From NCBI GenBank assembly GCA_946699065.1, contig CAMPDV010000005.1, positions 744,001-808,000 on the forward strand: DNA of 64,000 bases, read 5' to 3'. The stretch comes from Loxodes magnus (Eukaryota; Ciliophora; Karyorelictea; Loxodida; Loxodidae). Made by a program: the position numbers and the translations under genes. Each line of letters begins with the position of its first letter. Positions within the stretch are counted from its first letter, which is position 1. This document shows positions 1 through 63,239 of the stretch, piece by piece. The notes under the pieces were generated by a model. It was not told where the DNA came from. It made no database searches and saw only the letters and a list, made by a program, of their open reading frames with translations.

Positions 1-3000
1 AAACATTCTGAACTATAGCAATTTTCCCTTAAAATAACTATAACTAGAAAACTATCCAGTATAAGTTCCCTAACCAATCCTCAATTTATAATTAGCATCT
101 ATTTAAGAGAAATCTAGTAGTAATGTATTTTCATAAATAAGGCACTTAGATACGTATCTATAAGCTGAAATGCAGTGCTATGTTTGAGTTTGCTTCAACC
201 CTATAACAAGTTTCTACCAGGTCTTACCATAATATTAAGGAGCTTCTAATCCTGTTTAAGTTATGCCACTCCAATATTTAAAGGCATATTTCTTCATGTC
301 TATTCCTATTTAAATGAATTAATGTGCTGAATTATCTGAAATTTCAAAAATCATCATTTTTTCCTATGCAGCAACTGCTGTAAGATCAGGGGCGATTCAG
401 AATTCGAATGTAATTCCTGGTATATTAAGAGCTGTATCAAGATTAGCTATAAAATTTAGTGTTACATCTGTTGGGAGACTGCCAGGAAAACTATAGAGTA
501 AATTATTCCATGCCAGATTAAGATCATCATAAATAGGAACAGTTTGTAAAACAACTTAATCTTTAGGACTTATAGTAGCTGCACTGCAAGTATAAGAAGT
601 TGGCTATAACGTAGTAATCTTTCCTAAGCAACACAAGCATTCACCTTAAATAGGACTAAGAGCATTATATTAAAATTAAGCAGAGCAATCTTAAAGGTTT
701 TGCTAATTGTAAATTCTTATTCAGGAGACTTAATAAGTTTGAATGGCATTTCCTAGTTGAGAATATGAATTTTTGTGCTATAAGTTGCAAGTAGACGCTA
801 GAGATAAAGCATTATTATATACGCATTTAGTATCATAATCCTATTAAGTAACACATCATTAAAAGCTGTATACTCCTACAGATACTTTATAGATTTTGAG
901 ATATACATAAAAAATACTTGTACTTAGATAAGCTTTGACAGTTATGCTGTATGATGGTCCAATACTAAATTCTAGATATCAAATATTGCTTTAATGAGAT
1001 AGTGTCATAGTACATCCTACATTTATAATTTAGTAAACACTATATTTGTTAGAATTGCTTTAACTTTCAAACCTCATTTAGTAAATTAGTTAGTCTGATA
1101 AGAAAACGTTCCCTTGGTAAAATTAATCTCAACCATATAAGTTTATAGATGAAGGAGCTGTTATTTATTATAAGCCACTAATGTAGGTTGTATGAGGAAC
1201 CTTGCTATTGCATTCAGAGTATTATAATGGAAAGTTTGTGGTTGCTTCACATGTTCCTTAGCAGTATTCCCAACAAGGAGTATAAAGAGCCCAAAAATCT
1301 ACTAAGTATTTATCTAGGGAAAGTTAATCATGGGATTTTGCAATGTATCTTAATGCTAGCAGTTTCCCTTCAAATCCTACATTTCCTACTGTACTTACAG
1401 TCCCTAAAGATAAAGTTCAACCAGGTCCAACATTTCCAGAATTCAGAGTAAACTAAGGTCTATCAAAGCAGAAAGAAGGATATTTGAAAGAAGACCAGCA
1501 AAAGACAGTCTTTGTATTTGAAAATGAAACTACTATATAGTGCCAATACTGGAGTATATCAGAATACAAAGGAGCCTAAAAACTTTAGCCATGGCCTATG
1601 AATATGAAAGTTGCTCTTGGATTATTTAATGAAATTCGTAAAAAGGAAGAAGTATCAGCTTTAAGTATTTCTAGAATATCATAGTTGTTGTATGTTTAGA
1701 TATAAATTCAGAAGGTTAATGTAAATCCATTAGAATTCTAATTACCACTTAAAGGAGTATACAAATTGTATCCTATTATATCATCACTGGTTATTGCAGT
1801 TTAGAAAGCTATGGAAGACTATTATAAAGATGTAAGAGGAATATAGTTTGGGATATTTTGTACTGTAACAGGATATCTCGAAGAATCAGTTGTAATTGAT
1901 GAAATTGCTTAAGCGTAGCAAGTCAATGTATTAGCTCCACTATTTGAGAGATCCATCTAATAGCCTAAGCTACAAACACAATCTCCAAAATTAGGCCAAT
2001 TAGGATTATATTATTTAGCCTTAGGATCGCAAGAAGTTTGAATGTTTTCATGATTATATATTCTAATTCATGCTATTTCATAGGTAAAAGCTCCTGAAGG
2101 AAACATTATATAACTAGTTGTTGATTAGTCAATATTACAAGTTGGCTTTTAAGTAGCTTATCTGCAAGTAGGTTCTAAATTATCTCCTATTAAGCATAAT
2201 TCAATATTATAGTCATCAGTATTAGGATTATAAGTATTTTTAACTCTAACAGCCAATTCAAAGGAACTTTAAAATTAAAGTAGAGTTATATAAAGATCAG
2301 TATCTATTGTTGCTGTATCTATATGAAGATTAAAAACGTTTCCAGTTACGAATAGAGATATAGAGCAACTACCTAAGTTACCCATTAATTAGAATATTGT
2401 ATACTAAGTACTTTGTAAGGTAAGTTTTGCTCAGAACTCATATCTTATTACATCTTATCAAAACAGATTATAATAAAATAAAGCTTTATCATCTCCATAG
2501 TATTAAAGTGAGGGGCCAATTTACCCATAAATATCATTAGTCAATGTATGAGGAATATATTACGTGCACGTGGATGATGTATCATATTATGGATTTGCTA
2601 AATCCTAGCATACTCCTTTACAATTAAGTCAGCAGGGAGTTAAAGTTGACCAGCAATCTGATATTTACTCATTCAATCCTATTTCACTATAAGTTTTGCC
2701 CGAAAATCTTAATGCCATTACACTGCCTTAGAATTAATTCCACCCAATTAAGGTTCCATTTCCTATTGTCAATTTATCATTGTTATTTAAATAAGTAAGT
2801 AGTAAATTAAAAGTCCTAGTTCAACATGTAGATGGAAACTAATAGGAAGAATAGCAAGCCATTAGAATATTACTTGTAAAGCTGAGAATGACATGATGCC
2901 ATGTAACAGTATGACAGTAAGGAAACTAAATTTCATAAGTATTAGATAATCTTTCTGAATAAACTGTTATAGACTCTTAAAATCTATTTATACCAATGCC

Positions 3001-6000
3001 TAAAAATATGCCACTTAAATCCCTTATTTCCATTAGTTCTAATCATTCTCAAGCTGTTGGGTCTATTGTAAATCAGAAATCCATTGTAAACCCATTAGCA
3101 TTAATAATAGATGATACTGTGCTTTTAAAACTTAAATCAATCTTCTCATCAACAATTGAAGCAGCAAATTATGTTTAAACATAACTAGATATTAAAGAGA
3201 GGGTTATTAAATCAGAAGGAAGCTTGCATTTACCAACAGGATATCTAGGAGTAAAAGAAGGAATTGATTGAGTACATTATATTAAGTTAGTGACAGGGCT
3301 ATAAGAAGTAGCATAGCAAAGTGAACAGTGGCATTAAACTAGATCAGGATAAGTTGGATTATATTAGTGCGATTAATAGCAATTTCCTGATACTTTAGAA
3401 TCACTGTTGTATATTTATAAATCGTTAACCTAATAATCTTAAATACTCTGTTAAAATTTTAATTGGCTTAAATATTCAAATCTGCATCAATTTGTGCTTA
3501 TTGTTGCTTATATGCACTAAGGTTCGTAATTAATTTGAGTTACACAAAAGGAAATATCATGAGTTGCTCCATTATTTTTAATTCAAATTAGAAATGAAGC
3601 TTCTATTGATGAATAGGCAGATATTGTAACCTATAAACTTGTAGAATAAGTATTTAAAAAGAATTTGTTATCTACAGCAGAAACTGTCAAAGTACATCCT
3701 GCATTTATAATTTCAAATACATTGTATTCTGTTGCAGAAACACTTAATTTCGCTCAAAATGAATAAGCTGCATAGTTTTAAAGGAAAGGATTACTCAATA
3801 AACTAGTGTCGTACCCATTAAGTGAGAAGCTATAACTAGAAGTAATCGAAGTATAAGATGATTAGAGATACCTATGAGCAGCATTTAAAGAGCAGTTTTA
3901 ATAATCAGGTGAATTAGCAGGGCAAATTCCTAAACAATTTTTTCAGCAGGGAGTTAGAAGAGTTAAATAATCTACATAAGCTTCAGTTATTGGAATGCTA
4001 TCATATGGCATGTTAAATAATCGCAAGTTCAGAACTTTTCCATCCAAATCATTATATCACTAACAGCAATAACTTCCACCAACTCTAATTACATCAGTAC
4101 TTGTTATTATACTACTCTTTACTTCGAAATCTCTTTTAAAGCATTTTGACTATTTTTGATATGATGAAATGCAATATTTTGTTCCTTAATTAAGTTTCCA
4201 TCCAATGATTACATATTATCATCCTGCATCATAATAAAAAGGAACGTTAGCAGGTCTATTAGAGCTATAATCTGAATATAGTCTAAAAATGTAAGCATAA
4301 TTATCTACTACTATTGAAAGCTTTCTATCAATCTAGTTAGAAGCTAAAATTTCTAAAAGCGATGCGTTTTGATTAACGTTTGTACTTTTAATTCAGAAAT
4401 CTAGCATAAAGCCATTTGGATTGAGTGCGAATCCAATTTAATTAGCAATGGTATCTTAAATTCAATCATTAACTTACCATTAAAAGTTTTGCGAATATAA
4501 TGGTGATATTATTATATTTGTATAGGAAGGAACTGAAGCAAATGTTACAGGCAATCTTTAAATATAGTCTATTATTTGATCGTCGCAAAGATTAGATGAA
4601 TTTATTACTTTCCCTAAAGTACAAATACAGCCATGCTAATAATTCCATAGAGGATTGTATTGCCACTGTGAACATTAAATGTCTGGAACTTTATCATATA
4701 TTTTCAAACTTCTTATTTGAAGAGCTTAAATGGGATTTCCTAATGTGATTATAGACTCTTATCTAATGCTGCAAACAGTTGAAATCGTTGTAGAGTTTAA
4801 ATAAGTACAAATAGGCTCATAATAGGATTAAGTACACATATTCTTAAATCAAAAATCCTGTCTGATTTTTATATAAATGCTAATTAAATTAGAGCTTCTC
4901 CAAAGGTTGAAAAAGAAGTTAAACCACTTTAAATAAGCTATAAGCTTCCTTAAGAAATATCTACTATAATGTTAGAATTTAGAGCACTTATTTTAGTGGT
5001 ACATGCTAAATTTTCAATTTAAAGTAAATCATATTAAGTAGAAGAATCTACTAAACCTTTTATCCAAAACTCATAAATACCATTTTCTTAGTATCATATG
5101 TCACCATAGAAGGAGATGTCAGTTGCAAGTATTATTTAAGGTGTTGCTAAACTCTGCCATCCTGTTTTATATTTATCATGAGGAAGATTTCATGTGCATT
5201 AGTTTAAATCTATTGGTAAACTTTATAAGCATACTCCTCAGCAATGTTATCAACAAGGAGTATAAACACCCCAAAAATCTGCTAGTGTTTGTCCTAGTGA
5301 TAATTACGAAGCAGTTTGATTAAAATATCTAAAAGCTAATAAATATCCTTCAAAAACTGCATACCCTTACAAATGGCCTGTTGCTGTTCCATTTCCAATG
5401 CTAAGTTTATGCGAACTTGTAAGAATTCCTGAATTTAAGGCAAAATTAGTCTTTGTGTAGCAAACAGAAGTTAATTCGAAAGAAGTTCAGCAATAAACTG
5501 TTTATGTATTACTAAAAGAAACTATTATATGTTATCACTATGTAGCAGAGTAGTATGGGCACTAAAATCCTTATCCTCCGTTCAAATCGCTGACAAAAAC
5601 TATTAACTTTGAAAGTGAATCAATAGCAATAGTTAAAAATCTACTATTTGAAGTTTTAATTTCGAAAAAAATCATACTACGAGTCACAGAAGTTGATATT
5701 CAAAATGATAAAGTAAATCCATTTTGATTCAATTAGGAACTTAAATCAGTGTAAACACTGTAATCATTTACATAGTTACTTGTAGAAGAACTTATATAAT
5801 AATTAGGTTAGCTATCACTTGTTTATAGCACTACATAAGAAGGATAATTAGATACTTGTACTGGAAATCTAGAAGGAACATTTCTTATACTTTAGATAGC
5901 TTACACTGTACATATTATTTAGTTAGATCCTCCTGATATATCCATTACAAAGCCAAGGGAACAGATACAAGGACCTTCTAATGGTCAAAGAGGATTATAT

Positions 6001-9000
6001 AGATTTACTTAATTGCATGTTGTACCTTCAATATAATCCAGAACTTCAACCCAAGCAATTTAATAACTTACAGATGTTCAAGGAAATGTAATCTTAGAAT
6101 ATTAATTTTGGAAGAAATTGCATGAGGAAATACTTGTCAAATTTAAGCAATTAGCTTCGTTATAATCTGGAATAATACACCATTTTAAATCAAAATTGTT
6201 TGTAGCTGATTTATAATAATTGACTATAACTATTTTAGCTTCTAGGGTAGACGTAAACTAAGAAATTGTTATTTGAGAGCTGTAACTCTAAGTAGATGTT
6301 AAGTCCAATTAGAATACGTTATTACTTACTTTGAGTGAAATATCACAATTACCTGTATTTCCAACCAAATTAAAGATTTCATATTAAGTGCCAGTAAAAG
6401 TAAGTTAAGTTCAGAATTCATATCTAAGTATGCTTTAGTGGAATGGATTATAATAGAACTTCGTATTATCATTAGCTTGCCAAGATAATTAGGTTCCAGC
6501 GCTACTGATTGTCGAATAAATATCGTCTTTTAAATGGTGTCCACTTAGGCAAGTTGTTCCTTAAATATATTAAGGATCAGTAGTTGATACACATTATCCT
6601 TAGCATTTCTGCCAACATGGTGTAATACTAGTGAAGCAATCCATTTTATATCTATCTAATCCTAAGCTACTATATGTTTAACCATTTACTTTGAAAGCTA
6701 AAATTGAACCTTCAAATTCGTGATAAGTAATGAAGCTGTCAGGATCAGTAAAGCTTCCATCTCCTACTTAAATTTAGTCATTTGTAGTTAGATTTTATAA
6801 AACTAGTTTAAAGCTTCTTTTATAGCAAAAAGATGGATACAGCTAACTAGAATAGCAATATAAAGTATCTTAACTAGTGAAGCTCACCATAATATGATGC
6901 CAAGTTTTTGCTAGATCTATTGGAGCATTGAAATATTAAGCTATTCCCTATCTGTTACTATAAAAAAGTAAAACACCTGACCATTAGTTCAGCATAACAG
7001 TCAAAAATATTGAATTAGCAATGCTAGTGTCTTTAATTTCAAATAATTTCATGTCTGCTGTATTAGATTAAGTAAACCATCAAGTTAATGTAAATCCATT
7101 AGAATTTATAATACTACTAACAGCTGTATAAAAGTTAGTTGTGTATTCATCTGCTCCTACTGTGAAATCTTATTTGATATCTTAATTTATTCAAATACTT
7201 ATCAAATCGGATGGATATCTACAGAAGGGAGGAGGATAACGATTTGGAGTTAAAGTTATTGATTGTATAGGACTTGAAGTGCATGTTATCTTATACTGTC
7301 CAGCTACTAAACTACTTATATATCCTAACGTGCAAACACAAGCTCCTGCATTTCTATAATTTTGGTTATACTAATGCTATAGTTAGCATTATATGTTCTA
7401 TTCTTAGTAGTTAAATATATCAATTCAAGCTACTTAATATGACTATATACTTGTAGTGGGAAATTCTATTTTTGAGCCTAATTTAGAAGCAATATTGCAT
7501 GTATTTGACAAAACATAAGATAAGCATATAGGTTCATAATAAGAAGGAGTTACGCATCATTCTAATTGATAGTCATTTGTAGCTTTTCTATATTAATTTT
7601 GAATGTAAATCTTGGCTTCTAAACTAGTAAATGAATCAACCGTAATCTAATAACTTGTAGTAGAAACAGTAGTTAGTGCTAAGTTAAAACAATTGCCTGT
7701 AACTGAAACTTATATATTGCAATTATCTCCAATTAGATTTGTGAATATCACTTAAGAAGGATTTTAAGTAGCTTTAATTCAATATTCATATCTTATATAT
7801 TAAGCCATAAATAAATCGCTATAAAATATTGTATTATCATATCCATTCTTCGAGTAGCTTTGGCTATTATCACAAGTATAGTATGTATCGTCCTTTAATC
7901 TATGTGAATAGTATATACTACAGTAATTTATGGCTTCTTTAAATTCAACGTTTGTTGTACTTTAACATTCGCCTTAGCAATATTACCAGCATGGTGAATA
8001 AGTTGTCCAGCAATCTGCAAGTTTTTCATTTAATCCTAAAGTAATTCAATCCGATTTTGTTATTTTTAAGGCTAAAACTTGTCCTTACATTTCTTCATAC
8101 GTAGAATAAGTTCCACTTCCAACAGTTATAAGATCATTTGTATTTAGGTAAGCAAGAGTAAGTTAGAATTCTTTATTTTGACAGACTGAAGCATACAAGT
8201 AAGTAGATCAGCAAAAAATTGACGAAGAGGAAGAAAAACCTAATATAATATGTTGCCAATTATTATTTGCTCCCCAATATAGCCCAATTAGAGTGTTTTA
8301 GCTAGGTCTTTCAGTATATACTTCAACTACTTTTGAAATTTAGTTATGATTGACTGATAAGAAAACATTAGTTGTATCTTTAATTTCGAATATTCTCTAA
8401 TTAGCATTTACACTAGTTTTATACCAGAATGATATGGTAAATCCATTTTAGTTTATAATACTATTGACTAACGTATAAAAGCTTAGTATATCTTCATCAA
8501 CTGTTGGTTTAGCGTATGTAGTAAGTGTTTTGTCATCTATCTTTCCACTGACTGAAACAGATATGAAATCAGGATAATTACATCTTTCAATAGGATATCT
8601 TGTAGAAAATCATGAGGGATCGGTAAGTGGTTATAATGCAACCGACGCGCAGACTAATTCATCAGTATTTAAAAAGTTAGTTTAATAACCGATAGAACAC
8701 ATACAATCTCCATATCCGTGATGCTTAGGATTGAATTATATGTCAGGACAAGGCTCATTTCAAGAATAAGGATACAGTTTCACTTGAGCAATTTAATGAG
8801 GTACTGAAGTTTAAGGAAAGGCAATAGTACTAGAATCAGAATGTTAAATGTTACAAGTAGCTGGAATGATTGATTATATGCATTATGGCTCCTTATTATC
8901 TTAAGTTACACATCATGTGAATGTGTATTTATTCGTTATTGAATCGTATTAATTTTAAACGTAAGATTTCACTTTCTAGTTAACCGTAAATTAACTTAGA

Positions 9001-12000
9001 ATAATTTAATAGTGCTAATTAGTTGAAGCTGTTATATAGCAATCCCAAGTAACACTTGTAATTGTTATTTCTATAGAGCATTAATTTGAATTTCCAGTAA
9101 GTTTAAAGACAGTATAAGTTGATAAATCATTAGTTAAAGTAGTGAAAAATTAATATCTAAAATCAGTATTAGTGAACATGTTATAATTGAAAATATTCTT
9201 GTCATATCCGTATATAGTAAGATCATGTGTCGCATCAATATTTTATCAATTGTTATCTTTTAAGAGATAATAAGAATGATATGAACATGCACTAGTTTAC
9301 GGATCATCTGAACAAGTTCCTGCACAATTTAATCCGCATGGCGTTATAGATGTTAAGCAATCAGCTAATTTTTCATCTAAATTGAGATGCGTATAAGTAT
9401 CTTATATTACTCTTAAAGCTAGAATTTTTCCTTCGAATTATTCATAAGTACTATATGTTCCATCGCCAACTTTTATGGTATCTCCAACTACTAAATTACT
9501 AAATGTCAATTAAAAATCTCTTAAATAGCAATAAGAAGAAAATCCATATGAAGAGTAGCAGTATTTAGTTTATGAATTAGTAAAGGAAATTATTATATGA
9601 TGCCAATTATTTTAATCATAAAATGGAACAGCGAAAGTCTGTCTATTTGCTCGATTAGAATAAAATATAACTGACTTAGCTGCATTATCTATGTTTGATG
9701 ATAAAAACACACTTGATCCACTTCCAATTTCGAACATTCTCATATTTTTATTGGATACGGTTAGTGTAAACCAAAACGTTAGTGTGAAACCGTTCGAATT
9801 CATTGTTGGCCGAACTAAATTATAAAAGTTCGTAGTTCCTTCGTCGCCTACAGTATCAGAAAATAAAATTCCTGTTAATTAGTTAATATTTGAGGTTATA
9901 TCAACAGAAATATATGATGGTCATGAACAAATTGCTATTGGATATCTATTAACTAATGCTCCATTATTAATGCTAGAAATAAAACTATAAGGCTAACAAA
10001 CGTTATCATAAGATCCAGCTCCACCGTTGAAATCTAGTTTATATCCTAAGCTGCATACACATGAAAATGTTGTAAGATACTGTCTATAAGCATAAGAGGG
10101 ACACGTTAAATCTTAGAATATTTAAAATTTTAGTTAACTAAGACTATAGCTTATGGAACTTAAGGGAAACTGTAATTAGTTGCTAGCTGAATGCTTGATA
10201 AAGCAGGATTTATCTAACAAATATAGTTAACACTAAGGTTCTTCATTGATAGCTTATAAGCATCAATAAAAATTATATTTAGGACTTACAAATTAATTAT
10301 AGAGAGTTACTATATACTAATCATTAGCAGCAGCATTTATAAGATTTATTTGATAGTCATAATTATAAACTCCTGAAATGATTGAAAGAGAATATTAGCA
10401 TGATTAAACAGATAAAGTAATGCTACAATAAGAATTATCAATTAGTTCAAAAAGAGTGTATGATGTAGTAGTATCCGTTATTTTAATTCTAAAACTTATT
10501 TCCTAAAAATTAGTTTCAAATAAGTTGAAATAGTATTTATTTGGATCATAGAAGTAATTCTATACTTTGTTATTTGAGTCTATTACTGTTCATGTATTAT
10601 CCAAAAGTCCATAATATTTTTTCGAGTCACATTGAGATAACTAAACATCTGTTAGTGATTAGCATTAGCCAACACAAGACTAAATGCAAGGTGTGTGCAC
10701 AGTTCAGCAATCAACTACGTTTATGTTAAGAGACAAAGATGTTTTAGTTTAGGAAGTTATCCTTAAGGCTAAAATTTTTCCTATAAATTACGAATATAAG
10801 GGATAAGTTCCATCTCCAAATTTTATTACATCACTTGAATTCAAAGATGCTAATGTAAGGGAGAAATGAGATCGATTATAGCAGAAAGAAGGCAAGTTTA
10901 AACTGGAATAGCATGCTAAAGTACCTGAACTTTCAAATCCTACTACAATATGATGCCAACTTTACACATCGTAATAAGGAATTTCAAATCTTTAAGAAGA
11001 AATTCTTTATGTATAAAATTTCAAAACATTACGATAAATATTAAATAAAACAGATAGTCATTTATTATTTGTACTATTGTAAATTTCGAAAAATGTCATA
11101 TAAGTATTACCACCATTTGAATTAAATCAGAAACTCATTGTAAAGCCATTTGAATTAATGATAGAACTTACTAATTAATAAAAATTAGTGGAGACTTCAT
11201 CACCTAAAGTGCTAGTAAAAGTTCAACCATTATTCTAATTCACACTCCCAGATATATCTATTTTTATGAAATCACTTGGATAATTACAGTATGTAATTGG
11301 GAATTTATTAGTCCAACTAGGATCAGTTATACTAAGAATACTGGATCCAGCTTAGCACTTTTAAATACCAGAATTTAAATAACTTTAATAGCCCAAAGAG
11401 CATAAGCATATTCCTTTTGAAAGATCATAAAATGGATTATACATATGTTATTATGAACAATCAGGACTTGAAAACTATATTGTTAAATAGGAAAAATTAT
11501 AGCTAGGAGTAGCAGTTGGAAATTTAATACTTCCTAACTCATGATAAAGGAAACAAACTGAAGAAATAATTTTTGTAGAACACAATGGGAGATCAATAGG
11601 GTAATAAGGCTAAACACAAAAAATAAGGTAATAGGAATTTGTTGTAATATAATTTATTTCATATTAAATATTTATTATTTAGGATACTGAAGTTGGAATT
11701 ACTAGGTTTAAAGAGTCACCTGGAGAAGCCGTATTTTAAAAAGTATATTAATTATCTTAAACAATTATATTTATTTAGCAATTTTTTCCAGTTTGTTAAA
11801 AAATAGTTCTTGCTGAACCGTCTTAATTCAATTAAACTCAGAAGCTGATTCTTGTAATTCTATGTTAAAAAAATAAATCATAATAGTATTTTGATTTATC
11901 TTAGAGTCCATATGATTAATCGCTTCCAGCCAAATAAATGATATCTTTGATAGTAACACTTTATGTAAAACATGTAGTTCCAGAAATATATTAGACATTA

Positions 12001-15000
12001 GAAGTGTTTGTGCATTAACCATAACAAATTAATCAGCAAGGAGTTAGTGTTGCTCAGCAATCAGCAACTATTTAATTTAAGTTATAACTTTAGTATAAAT
12101 CATCTATAATTTTAACGGCCAAAACACTTCCTTTAAAAGATGTATAACCATTATACGTTCCATCACCTACGTAAATTTTATCATCAGATTATAAAGCGCT
12201 TAGTGTTAACGTCATTGATCTTTAAAAGCAGTAAGAAGGTTTCGTATAACTGGAATAGCAGTAGAGTGTTCCTGCTGATGTAAATCCTGTAATTATATAA
12301 TGTCAAGTATTTGACCCATCAAATGGTACCATGAAGCTTTGAGTTGTTGTTCTTTGAGTATAATATAATAAAGAAAATGATACTGTGTTCACTTAAATGC
12401 TAAGAAAGACATTTCCATCAGTTTTTCTTATTTCAATCATTCTCATTAGTGCAGAAGGTTCTGAAGTTTTAAACCAAAAAGATAAAATAAATCCACTAGA
12501 AAAAGGAATTTAACCTTAGACTAAGCTATAAAAGCTAGAATTTGCAGCATTACTAGAAGATGTAAATACAGTTTCTGTATATTAATTTATTGCTCCAGTT
12601 ATATCAATCCTTACCCAAGTTTTTGGATAGTCACAAGTTGTTAAAGGTCATCTATTAGTGTAGCTTACATCAGTAATTATTTAAATTTGATCAGCATTGC
12701 ATGTAATAGTATTAGTTCCTCCACCAGTTAAATCCATTTGATTTCCTAAACTACAAACGCAATCATCTGATGTTGGGTAATAAGGATTATATTATTTAGG
12801 AAGAGTACAGGTGCTTGCAGGAAGATAATTTTAAAATGTTGCTAAAGCGACTTAATAGCTTATAGTAACTGATGAGGTAGTTGGGAACATAATTTTACTA
12901 GTAGCAGAGTGTTAAATATTACATGTTGTAGCTTATGTAGCACTTCTACAAATTTTGGATTCATTAATTTCTATGTTATCATAAGCTATACACCACTATA
13001 AATCATAATTGGCACCATTAAATTAGTTTAATATAGTTATTCTAAACTCCATCGTACTTATAAACGAATCTAAAGTAATTTAGTAACTGTATGTAGATCC
13101 TGATACTATTACTAAGTTAAAAGTATTATCAGTAATTGAAAGAGTCAGTGAGCAGGAAGAACTACTTCCTAATATCTAGAATACTGTATAACTAGTAATT
13201 ATTCGCGTTACCTTTATCCAAAATTAGTATCTCAAAACGTTTTATTAGAACATATCATAATAAAATTTAGTATAATCACTTCCTACAATTTGAATGCTGT
13301 TAGAATCATCGCAAGTAGAATAAGTATCCTAATGTAATATGTAAGGCTAATAATTGCAATAAGTAGTAGTATCATACTATGGATAGGTAGTAGAACTACA
13401 TATTCCTTAGCAATTTAATCTGCAAGGCGTAAATGTTGTTCAGCAATCTACTATATTTTAATTTAAGCCTAAAGTATTCAAATTCTAATCCAAGACCTTT
13501 ACTCCCAAAAGATCTCCTACATATTCCGTATATCCTGAATAAGTTCCGCTTCCTATATAAAGGGAATCATCAGTCTATAAATCATTCAAGCTTAGAGTGA
13601 AAGTTCTAGAAAAGCAATAAGAAGGTTTTGTCTAACTAGAATAGCAGTAAAGAGTAGAAGTAGTTGAAAACCCAACAACTATAAAGTGCCAAGTATTTGA
13701 AGAATCGTATGGACCAACAAATTTTTAAGTTGCAACTCTTTGAGAGTAAAAAAGAAGAATCTCTTGATTTGTATCCACTCCAATGCTTAAAAACACATTA
13801 TTATTTGATTTTCTTATTTCCATCATTGTTTATTAAACGTTGGCTTAATTCGTATTGAATCAGAAAATAAGTATAAATCCACTATCAAAAGGAATTTATC
13901 CTGATACTAAAGAGTAAAAGTTTGTACTGCCTTCATCTGTACCTGCAGCAAATGAAAAGGGTGTTGCTTAATTTATTTTACTTGCTATATTGATTTCTAC
14001 CCATGATAAAGGATAACTACAAATAGGAATTGGATATCTTCCTGAGTAAGATGCATCATAAATTGGTAAAATACTAGAAGTACTGCAAGTTATATCATCA
14101 ATACCTGATAATGTCATTTAATATCCAAGTGAGCAGATACAAAATCCTAGAGAAGGTCAATTAAAATTGTACTTATGAGCCATAACTGCACATTGAGGAC
14201 TATATGAATAGACATAAACCCCTCTTACTTAAAACGAAATAGCTGAAATAGGAAATTAAATTTGACTATTTGAAAAATGTGAAAGCTTGCAAATATTTGT
14301 CGTTGTTCCTTGATAGCATTATGATTCAAAAGTAGTTCTAGTAACACAGAGTTTGATTTATCATAATGGTGAGCTATAAATGTAATAGATTTCCACTCTT
14401 AATTCTTCATTACTTGTTCATTGACTAACTGTGACTTAAAACGATGAAGTACTTGATCCATCATTTATTTACAAATTGAATAGTTAATTGGTAACATATA
14501 ACTTTAATCAGCAGGAAGAAGAAGGTCCATCAATAAAGAAAGCCAGGTATTAAGTTGCACTTGGAGTTGCTTTTAATCAAAATTTATAAATAGCAATATC
14601 CTAAAAAAATGTATCGTAGTTAAATAAACTAGAAGAGCTTCCAATATAACTGTAACTATTACTTCCATCAACTGTTTATCAAGTGGTTGTTATGAGATCA
14701 TGTGGTTGGTTAACTGTGCAAGTAGTAGTTGCAATATTTTATGGATCTTAAGTCAAGCATTCTCCAGAGCAATATTTTCAACATGGTGTTCTTACTGACC
14801 AACAATCAACAACGTTTTCATTTAAATTCAAGGAGCTAAATATATTTCCAGATACTTTGAAATTTAGAATTTTTCCCTCGAAAGATACAAGTGAATATTC
14901 ACTAAAAGAAAAAGTGCTATCTCCAAAAGTTATTATATCATCAGTGGTAATATCATTTAGTGTTAGTGCAAAACTAAAATCAAAGCAATATGAGGCTGAG

Positions 15001-18000
15001 TTTAAATAAGTTGAAATACAATATTTTGTTCCATTATTTTAAAACCCTACAACTAAGTAATGCCAAGTATTTTAATCATAGTAAGGAGCTTTAAACATTT
15101 AACTTGTTCCTGCTCTATTTGAAAAGAATAGAAATACTCCTTGATCCATTAAACTTTAAAATGATATAAATATTGTATTTGAGGCTTGAGAGTTCTTTAC
15201 TTCAAAGACTCTTGTATTTTTGCTTGTTGTGCTTAGTTTGATTCAGAAAGATATTATAAATCCATTTGCGTTTATAATAGAAGCTAATGCAGTATGGAAG
15301 TTAGTTGTAAGAGTACTTCCACCTGTAGTGAAGTTATTAGCTACTTAATTATTAATTGAAACTTCTATAAAATCAGTTGGGTATGGGCAAGTTGAAAATG
15401 GATATCTACCACTAGCTGTTTGAAGACTTGAAAGAGCAGAACTAGTACAAGTAGCACCAAATGAGCCAGGTGTGCTCATAATAAATGTATAACCTAGACT
15501 GCATATGCATAAGCCTATTGAGCTATAATTGGGGTTGTATGTTTTAGTTACTGAAGTACAATCTGTGCTAGTAAATGCATAATTATAATAAGCAAATCAT
15601 GCAATTTAATAATTTATAGCTGATGTTGGAAATTAAATAAAGCTAGTAGCACTTTGTTCAATGCTGCATGTTGAGCCAATGTTATATATATATTAGCATT
15701 ATTAAGGATTTTTATGGAATTCAGGTACTACATACCATCTTATTGTATAATCATTTGTGGCAGTGCTATAAGTTGATTGATACTAAACTCTAAATTAAGT
15801 TGTTCCTGAAGTAAATTCTGATATCTAAATTTATTTAGTACTAGCAAACGAAGAACTCAACTAGAATATATTTCCTGTAATGCTCATTGTAACAGCGCAA
15901 GAAGCAGCATTCCCTTAAATTTGGAAGAAGTTATAACTTATGGCATTGTAAGTTAATTTTGCCCAAAATTAATATCTTTATGTGTTTTACATAAAGATAT
16001 CATAATAAAATTTTGTTTAGTCATTTCCATAAGCAATAAAGGAGCTTGCTCCATAAGTTTAATAAGTATCAGAAATCAAATTATTTGCCCCAGTAGTGCA
16101 AGTTGTTCCTGAAACATATGTTGGATCGCTATTATCGCAATATCCAGCACAATTTAGTCAGCAAGGAGAATTTAGCGAAAAGCAGTCTATTTTATTTTCT
16201 GTTAAGGACAATAAAGTATGATATTTCCCAGAAAATTTAAGAGCCATTATTTATCCTTCAAATTCAGAATAGCTTGCTAAGGTTCCAGCACCTACTTTTA
16301 ATACATCATTTGAATTAAGTTAGTTTATTAGCAATGCAAATGTACGTAAATAGCATGAAGAAGGAAATAAATAAGCTGAGTAGCAGTAATAAGTTTCTGC
16401 ATTCGTAAAACTAACTATAATATGGTGCCACGTATTGTTTGAACAATAGGGAGCATAAAACTATTAAGTAGAAGCTCTTTCCGTATAAAAATGAAGGATT
16501 TTTTATTCTTAATCTAGTCCAATTGAAAGAAATCTATTAGTGCTATCTTTAATTTCTAAGATATTCATGTTTACTGTACCTGTAGTTTTAAACCAAAAAT
16601 CTATTATAAATCCATTTGCATTTGAAATTGAGCTCAACGTAGATTGAAAGGTTGCTACTTAAATTTCGTCAGTTCCTATCGTGAAAGAATTTCCTATATA
16701 TTAATTAATAGAAGAAATATATATATAATCGCTTGGCAAACTACATTTAGATACAGGATATCTTGCAGTGAAACTAGGAATAGAAAAGCTGCAGGTTTAT
16801 GATGTAGAGGGATTGTAAATAGATCCCGCATAGCATAAGGAACATTAGCAAGTACCAGCATTAGGGAATTATTGATTATATTAATTTGAACCACATTAAA
16901 GCTATATTTAAGTACTTGAATCGTAAACTTTCAAATTAGCTATTAAATATGAGATTGAAGAGCTAAATTATAAGTAACTATTAGAAGCATGCTATAATTT
17001 AGGTATGCAATTAGTCCCAGTTATAGAGTTTTCACTTTGACAATAGCTGTATATATCAATATTCACACATACTTATAAATCATATTAGTGAGTTCCTAAG
17101 TCATGAATGTTAATAATGATTTAAGCTATTAAAGTTGGAGAGTAGGAAGGAATTACAATTTAATAAGATTTATCATCACTATTATCTGCTTGATCTATTA
17201 CTATGTTAAATTCATCATTTACATGTGAAATAGTTAAAGAGCATTGTCCACTGTTATCTAGTTTAAAGATGTCATAGGAAGTAGCACTTTAAGTCAAAGT
17301 GCTTCAGAATTGGTAATTCATATACTGCTAGTTCAATAAATCTCCGTTAAATACACTGCTAAATCCATATATTTTGTATAAATTATCAGAATTTATACTA
17401 TACCATGCACCTGTAAACATTGATGTAGGTCCATTTAATGAGCACCCTGTAGTTAGTTAAGGATCCGTATCAGAACAAGTGCCTGAGCAACTCTACCAGC
17501 AAGGAGTTTATATAGTAAGGCAGTTCATCACAGTTGAAGTAATTCCCAAGTTAGAATAAATATCATTATAAAGTCTTAAAGCTAGAATTTTACCTGTAAA
17601 TTGTGAATATCCAGTAGCAGAACCTCCACCAACAGTTAGAATATCGTTTCCATTAACTTAATTTGCATCTAATATAAAATTTGCTGATTAGCAATAACTT
17701 GGGAAATAAAAGGTTGAATAGCAATACTATATATTAGTAGTTGTAAAGCTTAATAGGAAATGGTGCCAAGTAGCTAAGTCATAGTATGAAAATTGCATTT
17801 TTTATCCAGAGCTTAAATCTGTTATTAATATTAAAGTTGATTGGCTTGGATTAATAGCTAACTAAAGGAAAATTCTTAAACTATCCTTTATTTAGAAAAA
17901 TATCATTTTTTAAGTGGATCCAAGATTTAACCAAAAATCCAATGTAAATCCATTTATATTTAAAGCAGTTCCTAGCTAAGTTTATCAATTAACTGAAGTT

Positions 18001-24046: not shown

Positions 24047-24058
24047 ATTCTATAAGCA
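24047..24058. repeat. Target-site duplication, left copy (element 1)
   Basis: ATTCTATAAGCA is identical to 25023-25034 and immediately precedes the element. Confidence 0.8.
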
Positions 24059-24073
24059 GATACATAGATAAAA

Positions 24074-24927
24074 ATGGAAAAAACCCGGGAATCTAAACCT
24101 TAAATTCTAAGCTTAAAGATCAATCTTAAGTCTCAGTTAACTAACAAGAACCAAGAATTCAAAAAAGATAAATCTACTCCTGTTAAGGATTGGGAAATAC
24201 GGAATTTCCTAGCAAACTGAAAAAGCTTGAGAAACTCCACGAACAAGACATTATTTAGCTTTATTCATTAATTGAGAAAATGAATACCGAAATATAGATC
24301 TTGAAGGCGGAAAACTTGAATCTTCGGCTTCTTTTTTAAGATAGAAAAAAGGAAGATCAAGACTTGGTAAGTAAAGTTTAGTTTTAAATTGAAGCCTTAA
24401 CTTCCTAATTTGAACTATTAGAAAAAAAACTAGTAGCAAATCAATAGAAAATTAAAGAAGAAAATCGATTACCAATAAAAAAAAACTAACCTCAAACAGA
24501 TCAGATGGAAATTGAAAAAATGCGAACAGAATCAAAATTTTAATTCAAACCTTTAATAAAACGTTGCTATTGTTGTTGTCAAAAGGCTGGACATTTTTGG
24601 AGGTAATGTCCGAAGTGAAGAAGAGTGCTTGAGCAGCACCGTAAAGAATTTGGAACATCGAGGAGGCTATATTGTAACTACTCTGGAGTTATTTACAGAA
24701 AGAAGCTGATATTAAATGATTCAAGTGTGACACTAATCAAACAGGATCTTGGTATTTAATAGTAGCAGAATTAATAGCTTTAAAAGGACAACAATGACCT
24801 TAGAATTTGGTTAGAGAAGCTGGAGAAAAATTACAAGAAGATGGAAGAACAATTCTATGAGCTTATTGAAGAGAAAGAAGAATTATCTCAGTTTGAAATT
24901 GATTCAGATGAAGACATGTACAGTTGA
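24074..24927 (+). CDS. Gag/ORF1-like coiled-coil zinc-knuckle protein, copy 1 (frame-shifted start)
   Basis: The main frame is open from about 24061 to the TGA at 24925-24927. It has an N-terminal region, a long coiled coil ('LKKLEKLHEQDIIQLYSLIE'), a CCHC-type zinc knuckle (CYCCCQKAGHFWRQC), a conserved block 'RLYCNYSGVIYRKK', a second coiled coil and an acidic end (DEDMYS). The knuckle has one extra Cys compared with the C-X2-C-X4-H-X4-C pattern. The only early ATG (24074) is in a different frame; a -1 slip at the A6 run near 24162-24167 would join it to the main frame. The protein most likely binds the element RNA. No stop besides TGA is needed. Copy 2 at 62306-63216 aligns over its whole length. 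Confidence 0.7.
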
Positions 24928-24952
24928 GTATGAATATAAAAACTTTTATTGT

Positions 24953-24986
24953 CTTTAATTTGAGGAAACATTTCCTCTAATTAAAG
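24953..24986 (+). repeat. Near-perfect hairpin in the element-1 3' region
   Basis: CTTTAATTTGAGGAAA pairs with TTTCCTCTAATTAAAG across a 2-nt loop (16-bp arms, one mismatch). It lies 25 bases after the ORF stop, where non-LTR elements often carry a structure recognised by the reverse transcriptase. Confidence 0.6.
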
Positions 24987-25022
24987 ATGATCCTAACCCT
25001 TATAGTTAAAATTAATTAATTA

Positions 25023-25034
25023 ATTCTATAAGCA
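25023..25034. repeat. Target-site duplication, right copy (element 1)
   Basis: ATTCTATAAGCA follows directly after the AT-rich tail of the element. Confidence 0.8.
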
Positions 25035-62234: not shown

Positions 62235-62248
62235 CAATACTATGGAAT
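62235..62248. repeat. Target-site duplication, left copy (element 2)
   Basis: CAATACTATGGAAT is identical to 63226-63239; neighbouring bases differ, so the repeat is exactly 14 bp. Confidence 0.85.
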
Positions 62249-62305
62249 GAATGAATAATAATAATATTAATTTTGAGTTTTCCGTTTTAGGGATTTCCAA
62301 CCCCG

Positions 62306-63216
62306 TCAGGAGTACAGCAGTTCATGCTCCCTGCTGTTAAATATAAATGTTTGGGACGTCCAATTTTAGCGAGATTGGGAACTCGGGTTTCACCAGGTTT
62401 TCCTTCCTTTTACTTGATATGGTTCCATCTTGATCTTGTATATTGAACCATCCGGGTTGCAATACATTCTTTTCATTCTTGCTTCTTCTTTTTTCTTCTT
62501 TTGTTGTTCTTTTATCCAATAGTTTCTTTATTTCTATTAGAATTTCTAACACTTCCGATAAGGATATCATACGCTTCCACAGCAGAAACATTTCTTTTTT
62601 ATTTTGAATTATTTCCATTGATTTGTTTGCTCTTTCTAGGCTTCGATTTCCATTTGTATAGCTCCAGTTTCGCTTTACTCTTTCTTAAAAGTTTACAATT
62701 TCTCTTCTACTTTTCCGAGTCTGTTATCCAGTTCAGTCTGTTTCTAAAGCTAATTTTAGGATTCGTTAGTCTGACTTTGTGAGATATTCCAAAAGGCGTT
62801 AAGATCTCATTCCTAGGACATAAGTCTTGACTTAATTCCTTCTGCTAGGTCTAGCTTTGCCATCAGCATATCATTGTCCTTCTTCAATCTCTTGACCTCT
62901 TCCTGGAGGTTCAGTACCATTTTGATGAGCTACTCCACGCTCATCTGGCCAGAAGGATTGAACTCTGGTACCTCATGATGGAGAACATGTTTCATCTGTT
63001 TCCTCGGTTTCTCTTTTGAGATTGGAGTTTCCGTGTGTATATTCTTCAAGGTTGGCTTCCGTTCGTTTTGTTAGATTCCAAATTGTTAGTTCAGTGTTGG
63101 TTAAGGTTGTGATAGAGAAGAATGTTAAGATTATTAAGACTTGGCTTCTTGCTTCCTCCCTTCCTTTTTGCTTAGGAAGAGGTGGTATAGAAGCCTGACT
63201 TTAAACCTTCAACCAT
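62306..63216 (-). CDS. Gag/ORF1-like coiled-coil zinc-knuckle protein, copy 2 (frame-shifted start)
   Basis: The main frame ends at TGA 62306-62308 and is open to the 5' end of the element. It carries 'EVPEFNPSGQMSVEQLIKMV', a coiled coil ('LQEEVKRLKKDNDMLMAKL'), a zinc knuckle (CFCCGSVWYPYRKC) and 'RMYCNPDGSIYKIK', each matching copy 1. The knuckle has Tyr where the family has the zinc-binding His, a one-base change, so zinc binding may be weakened. The only early ATG (63216, MVEGLKSGFY) is in the frame +1 to this one; a -1 slip at the A5 run near 63163-63167 would join them. Another frame change may lie near the 3' end, since the last about 50 codons no longer match copy 1. Confidence 0.65.
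62319..62344 (-). repeat. Short hairpin in the element-2 3' region
   Basis: ACAGCAG and CTGCTGT form 7-bp arms around a 10-12-nt loop near the 3' end of the element, at a place comparable with the hairpin of copy 1. The sequences are not alike, so shared function is only a suggestion. Confidence 0.35.
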
Positions 63217-63225
63217 TTTTTTATT

Positions 63226-63239
63226 CAATACTATGGAAT
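63226..63239. repeat. Target-site duplication, right copy (element 2)
   Basis: CAATACTATGGAAT abuts the A-rich 5' end of the minus-strand element. Confidence 0.85.

Follow-up and report, generated by a model that had tools for sequence, protein, structure and literature searches.

Two short units flanked by target-site duplications

The 64,000-nt stretch of Loxodes magnus DNA analysed here (the window) contains two short units that we describe together. Unit 1 is 964 bp long, lies on the forward strand at positions 24059-25022 and is flanked by a perfect 12-bp target-site duplication (TSD), ATTCTATAAGCA, at 24047-24058 and again at 25023-25034. An A-rich leader at 24059-24073, a part that varies between copies (2-30 nt from TSD to ATGG, mostly A-rich, in the 24 copies compared), precedes an open reading frame (ORF) at 24074-24927 that in this copy runs out of frame right past its start. 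The ORF specifies a coiled coil, a CCHC zinc knuckle (CYCCCQKAGHFWRQC, 24565-24609) and a YCN motif kept across families (RLYCNYSGVIYRKK, 24664-24705); it contains an internal TGA translated as Trp and closes with a terminal TGA at 24925. Downstream lie a 3′ hairpin region at 24951-24992, homologous to the 3′ end of LINE-F (described below), and a terminal stretch with an ATTA-type tail at 24993-25022, which also aligns to the LINE-F end and was found in 28 of 28 copies read.

Unit 2 occupies 977 bp on the minus strand (62249-63225), between perfect 14-bp copies of its own TSD, ATTCCATAGTATTG, at 63226-63239 (5′) and 62235-62248 (3′). Its ATG is at 63216, and several frame changes break the ORF. 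The first 42 nt of that ORF (MVEGLKSGFYTTSS, 63175-63216) resemble the start of LINE-A ORF1. A CCHC-type knuckle, CFCCGSVWYPYRKC, follows at 62549-62590, with TGA read as Trp and with H instead of Y in several other copies; beyond it are a RMYCNPDGSIYKIK motif at 62429-62470 and an A/T repeat tail at 62249-62266. The layout given in the initial annotation, with perfect TSDs, an A-rich leader plus ATGG, a coiled-coil and CCHC protein and an A/T repeat tail, was thus borne out for both units. Likewise neither has a reverse transcriptase (RT), and Pfam scans of the unit proteins returned no endonuclease (EN) or RT family.

Under the standard code, the window holds no ATG-initiated open frame of at least 120 aa; long open frames emerge with TAA and TAG as Gln. 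Karyorelict ciliates read TGA as Trp or stop, depending on context, and the internal TGA at a conserved position in the units fits this code.

Copy number, common ends and copy-specific duplications

Were the units mobile elements, further copies with common ends and differing TSDs would be expected, as the initial annotation had pointed out, and a search of the whole assembly (705,730,643 bp in 7,843 contigs) found this for both. For unit 1 (family 1), the best 40 of 1,627 first-look candidates were scored, and all 40, window copy included, were near-full-length at 94-100% identity; two fragments of one older copy, at 81 and 86%, came from the same search. The best 40 of 4,346 candidates for unit 2 (family 2) gave the same outcome (40 of 40 near-full-length at 94-100%, again with the window copy), plus one extra fragment at 72%. 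Because 40 candidates were scored per unit, copy totals from these places are lower bounds. Across the entire assembly, a 22-mer from the family-1 knuckle matched 675 places with at most 2 mismatches (reversed control, 0) and a 26-mer near the 5′ end matched 721 (control, 0); the near-equality of the two counts suggests that most family-1 copies reach the 5′ end. Nesting is seen at L003 (positions 726-2643), where a young family-1 copy interrupts an older, oppositely oriented one (81-86%).

We examined 28 of the 40 scored family-1 places with their flanks. The 3′ stretch that all of them share showed small variants in seven loci (L008, L011, L014, L015, L017, L019 and L022). Four loci with flanks common to another locus (L011, L024, L025 and L026) were left out of the TSD test, leaving 24 distinct sites. 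The TSDs of these copies exceed chance: the match between a copy's own 5′ and 3′ flanks averaged 13.9 bp versus 6.7 bp in 552 mismatched pairs, and a TSD of at least 9 bp (9-19) was present in 22 of 24 copies versus 47 of 552 mismatched pairs. At a threshold of at least 11 bp, the figures were 19 of 24 versus 6 of 552. Two copies, L007 (6 bp) and L022 (8 bp), had no clear TSD of at least 9 bp. L015 and L027 have the leader ATGCTAGCATAAAAA in common and different TSDs, as would follow if both had brought it along from one source locus.

For family 2, 20 of the 40 places were examined, including three with mis-anchored starts and two groups of three with common flanks. A TSD of at least 11 bp was found in 10 of these 20 copies versus 15 of 380 mismatched pairs, and the other half had no clear TSD of that length; another 3′ anchor, with eight copies excluded, gave a TSD in 5 of 12 copies versus 0 of 132 in the control. 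Both families carry the variable, copy-specific TSDs of products of target-primed reverse transcription, the signal being weaker in family 2. Family 1 also has the common, tailed 3′ end of a non-LTR element and no terminal repeats.

Two families of one superfamily

The initial annotation had placed both units in one family, a grouping that did not survive comparison at the DNA level, as blastn gave no significant match between unit 1 and unit 2. Their homology is confined to the proteins, which are 36% identical over 95 aa (E=1e-8). With the unit-2 protein joined from two frames, the local alignment score was 158, versus a mean of 49 and a maximum of 78 in 300 shuffles. Nine copies taken straight from their loci showed no variation in the CCHC cysteines or in the Y-C..G-x-I-Y motif. 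Because the proteins are homologous, the DNA shows no significant match and the CCHC and YCN residues are invariant, we treat the units as two families of one superfamily.

The layout recurs in other members of the superfamily: family 4 (L007/L089 and in L033) and, at one locus each, family 3 (L074/L087) and family 5 (L041/L088). The superfamily motif is also present at L120. Families 1 and 2 share a length of about 0.95-0.98 kb, a short A-rich leader with ATGG, a coiled coil, CCHC and YCNxxGxIYK in the protein, and a folded 3′ stretch with an A/T tail. By eye, a sequence resembling a serine tRNA gene lies downstream of the family-5 element (L088, on contig C97).

Coding state of the encoded protein

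Contrary to the initial annotation, neither window copy is intact, both being frameshifted; the description does hold for other copies. With TGA as Trp, 12 of the 28 family-1 copies read, not including the window copy, are open from ATG through the knuckle and YCN motif to an acidic C-terminus. Unit 1 has six A past ATGG instead of the usual seven and its frame is shifted for that reason, a state found in 7 of the 26 family-1 copies with a start found (window copy included), which run out of frame immediately past the start. Its knuckle also carries an additional TGT, a Cys codon missing from 27 of 27 other aligned copies. In family 2, 7 of 20 copies (L049, L050, L051, L052, L053, L063 and L065) read from ATG through the knuckle and YCN motif, with L047, L061 and L066 among the 20 not judged; a scripted count gave 6 of the 16 copies with a start found. 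In 24 of 28 family-1 copies the A run past ATGG counts 6, 7 or 8 residues, and it may be a slippage or frameshift site.

To gauge constraint on the protein, we compared substitutions between and within families. Between family 2 (L049) and family 4 (L007), dN/dS was 0.245 over 189 codons, with dS saturated in the first window; the ratio was 0.08 for the coiled coil (80 codons) and 0.69 for the final window (40 codons), in which L007 carries a frameshift. As judged from these ratios, the protein is shown to be under purifying selection between families 2 and 4. Among family-1 copies, private changes came close to neutrality (N/S at 0.89 of the expected value; 135 N, 55 S) and shared ones were under mild constraint (0.68; 43 N, 23 S). 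In our reading, copies that are dead drift, and the source lineages stay under constraint.

Database comparisons say little more about the protein. No Pfam entry was matched over the cut-offs by either unit protein, and a search of solved structures returned weak matches only (TUT7, Copia gag and nucleocapsid, E 0.08-0.34). The AlphaFold model of one family-2 copy contains a single long helix, spanning residues 94-189 (block pLDDT about 68-84), the remainder being unsure at a mean pLDDT of 50, and a Foldseek search with this model gave no match below E 2.

LINEs of the same genome share one end with the units

According to the initial annotation, a longer relative encoding EN and RT would be the driver, and we found LINEs with both that share one end with the units. 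In a search of the assembly for RVT_1, the best 150 of 3,403 candidates were scored. LINE-A (L041 and L043; partial in L045 and L046) is about 5.5 kb long and ends in a hairpin and a TTTA tail. Its copies also carry AAAAAATGG, upstream of which L041, L043 and L045 are similar over some 20-40 AT-rich nt, so that a short leader may precede it. Other families are LINE-B (L042) and LINE-E (L044).

An endonuclease search of the genome led to LINE-F, in which EN scored over the cut-off and RT matched RVT_1 at E=6.5e-27, with WADD. A single frame of 841 aa, rich in Q and N, lies ahead of EN. The element measures about 6.05 kb in contig C135. Three copies (L093-L095), all beginning with a run of A followed by ATGG, show 99.5-99.9% identity to one another over 2.75-2.8 kb, from which we conclude that LINE-F moved recently. 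LINE-F-like elements lacking RT and retaining EN and the C-terminus (family G; L091, L092, L116, L118 and L121) have an identical deletion junction in all five loci, spanning about positions 3287 to 5016 of L090.

Starting immediately past the stop codon, the terminal ~90 nt of unit 1 align to the LINE-F 3′ end at L090 (71% over 97 nt, E=1e-5), L120 and L119 (72%, E 1e-6 and 4e-6). The family-1 3′ end scored 53 against LINE-F, whereas 500 shuffles had a mean of 19.7 and a maximum of 37. Against family G the score was 40, and against LINE-A, LINE-B and LINE-E it was 19, 27 and 15, the LINE-B value being reached by 8 of the 500 shuffles. Family 1 thus has its 3′ end in common with an autonomous LINE, at about 71%. 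An exact LINE-F 3′ end was not found on any ORF1-only unit among the 20 places fetched from the best 40 of 1,797 candidates, all 20 being LINE-F itself; these places were 99.6-100% identical, a value that says little on the average LINE-F copy because they are the best matches. Since no exact LINE-F end was found and the match is only about 71%, the immediate partner of family 1 may be an unsampled LINE-F relative. Another 18 3′ regions downstream of RVT_1 matches, mostly LINE-A, included none like unit 1 or unit 2.

Family 2 is linked to a LINE at the opposite end. Families 2 and 4 and LINE-A ORF1 have an N-terminus of ~14 codons in common (MVEGFKSGFYTTSS, MEGFKRDFYTIS and MVSFKKGFYTTSS); 0 of 1,000 shuffles reached the scores of these three pairings, the only such ones of the 36 pairs tested. 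The unit-2 3′ end, compared with five LINE 3′ ends representing part of the genome's LINE families, scored above shuffles with none, and so appears not to be held in common with any of these five.

A chimeric element joins family 4 to LINE-A. At L033/L085, a 5′-truncated LINE-A, 97.85% identical to positions 3733-6009 of the oriented L041 locus, runs into a family-4 3′ end just past the LINE-A stop codon and ahead of the LINE-A hairpin. The family-4 part was 100% identical at 7 other places among the best 40 matches, and 1 of these 40 spanned the junction. No family-4 sequence was matched in the 5′ flank, which argues that this is not a LINE inserted into a family-4 copy. The simplest account would be a template switch from family-4 RNA to LINE-A RNA in reverse transcription. 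The chimera has no clear TSD of its own, the best candidate being 8 bp long and falling within the A/T tail. Downstream of the chimera, L085 contains a repeat-like stretch with a LINE-A-like terminal hairpin (AGAGATGTGCCC...GGGCTACACACTCT), perhaps a SINE, as judged by eye.

Probable non-autonomous retroposons with a gag-like protein

Taken together, the units are very probably copies of two related non-autonomous non-LTR retroposon families, each encoding one gag-like protein and presumably copied by LINE machinery. This agrees with the initial annotation, which had read them as non-LTR elements with a gag-like protein only, and the copies, TSDs, common ends and the EN- and RT-encoding LINEs sharing one end all support it. 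In the mechanism that we propose, LINE EN and RT would nick the target and prime on the folded 3′ end and tail, that is, by target-primed reverse transcription. A LINE-F-type element would serve family 1, and LINE-A families 2 and 4. For its part, the encoded protein may coat the RNA of its element and aid its copying, and we propose that the reading frame is kept for this reason. Mobilization in trans by LINE ORF2p is inferred from sequence, and the LINE-A/family-4 chimera would be consistent with it.

The strongest alternative is that the families are half-LINEs in the sense of mammalian HAL1, each an internal deletion of a full LINE and its protein that LINE's ORF1. The shared family-1 and LINE-F 3′ end and the first ~14 codons that families 2 and 4 have in common with LINE-A are what such an origin would leave, and family G, with EN and no RT, demonstrates that LINE-F-like elements do yield deletion derivatives. 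The proteins point the other way. A profile of LINE-A, LINE-E and LINE-B ORF1 aligned to the family 1 and 2 protein profile over 22 knuckle columns only, at a probability of 3.85%, both profiles being shallow and the comparison low in power. The 841-aa LINE-F frame matched no Pfam family, and a pattern search of the LINE-F ORF in three forward frames of L093 found neither a knuckle nor a YCN motif. On the LINE families sampled, we consider an origin as half-LINEs unlikely.

Far less probable is that LINE machinery produced the units as processed retrocopies from some host gene encoding a CCHC protein. Near-full-length copies with TSDs, some with an open frame, would be expected of retrocopies too, but the copies read end in ATTA or ATT repeats past a folded stretch, as LINEs do. 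It was on the lack of a poly(A) tail that we rejected this origin; the presence of several families with separate young copies and the homology of the family-1 3′ end to LINE-F also speak against it. Least credible of all are solo gag remnants of LTR elements, given the weak matches to gag-type knuckles (E 0.08-0.34) but no terminal repeats, and repeats spread by segmental duplication, which the shared flanks of L018/L024/L025/L026, L004/L011 and two family-2 groups of three would favour, yet which we rejected for most copies because the 28 family-1 loci read, despite their common ends, occupy 24 distinct sites and only 4 of the 28 had to be removed for flanks common with another.

If the retroposon reading is right, the gag-only superfamily could tentatively be regarded as an independent lineage, with its own RNA-binding-type protein under selection, that splits into families and switches LINE partners, taking a 3′ end from the LINE-F type and a 5′ start from LINE-A; we hold this wider proposal with less than even confidence.

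Relation to known elements

HAL1 elements end in poly(A), whereas the Loxodes units have A/T repeat tails after a folded 3′ end. The initial annotation had likened the units to HAL1 in layout only. As described in the literature consulted, HAL1 (half-L1) of mammals is a non-autonomous LINE relative that encodes ORF1p only, and so resembles the Loxodes units in having an ORF1-type protein without EN or RT (PMC5753468). It departs from them in descent: HAL1 derives from L1, whereas the protein of the Loxodes units is, as far as sampled, not a cut-down LINE ORF1 and not recognizably that of any of the LINEs compared (LINE-A, LINE-E, LINE-B and LINE-F), apart from the ~14 N-terminal residues that families 2 and 4 share with LINE-A.

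A second likeness is to TRE5-A.2 of Dictyostelium discoideum, which, in the account consulted, is a non-LTR element without ORF2, mobilized in trans by the ORF2p of TRE5-A.1, of which it is a variant, and targets positions about 50 nt in front of tRNA genes (PMC5633606). Both it and the Loxodes units are ORF2-less non-LTR elements of protists. Unlike TRE5-A.2, the Loxodes units share only one end with each LINE sampled, at about 71% or over ~40 nt, and would thus not be ORF2-less variants of their drivers. HeT-A of Drosophila is a non-LTR element that encodes Gag and no RT of its own; in the sources at hand it is telomere-specific with a host function, whereas the Loxodes units are dispersed.

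For L. magnus itself, two complete LINE families, rnd-1_family-27 and -19, more than 30,000 LINE-classified repeats and a majority of unclassified interspersed repeats are described in the main text of a genome report (PMC11441545). Extensive genome editing is reported to be absent from this ciliate. These two LINEs carry EN and RT, both of which the units lack. LINE-A and LINE-F are of the same kind as these two. We found no description of ORF1-only families of L. magnus in the passages of that main text consulted (PMC11441545) or in literature searches.

ORF1-only parasites of LINEs are an already known kind, as HAL1 and TRE5-A.2 illustrate. What is new is the families themselves, their protein, which does not resemble the sampled LINE ORF1s, and the pairing with two separate LINEs. 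To our knowledge, LINE parasites are mostly non-coding SINEs, and the few that code for protein are usually trimmed copies of their driver. Several families that keep a protein of their own without EN or RT make it testable why a LINE parasite retains a gag-like gene and how its partner changes. The ORF1-only families may also explain part of the unclassified repeats reported in L. magnus.

Elsewhere in the window, at positions 1000-16500, several stretches are mutually 67-79% identical, a pattern resembling that of a tandemly repeated gene whose copies have diverged, and the open frames in that region are fragmented.
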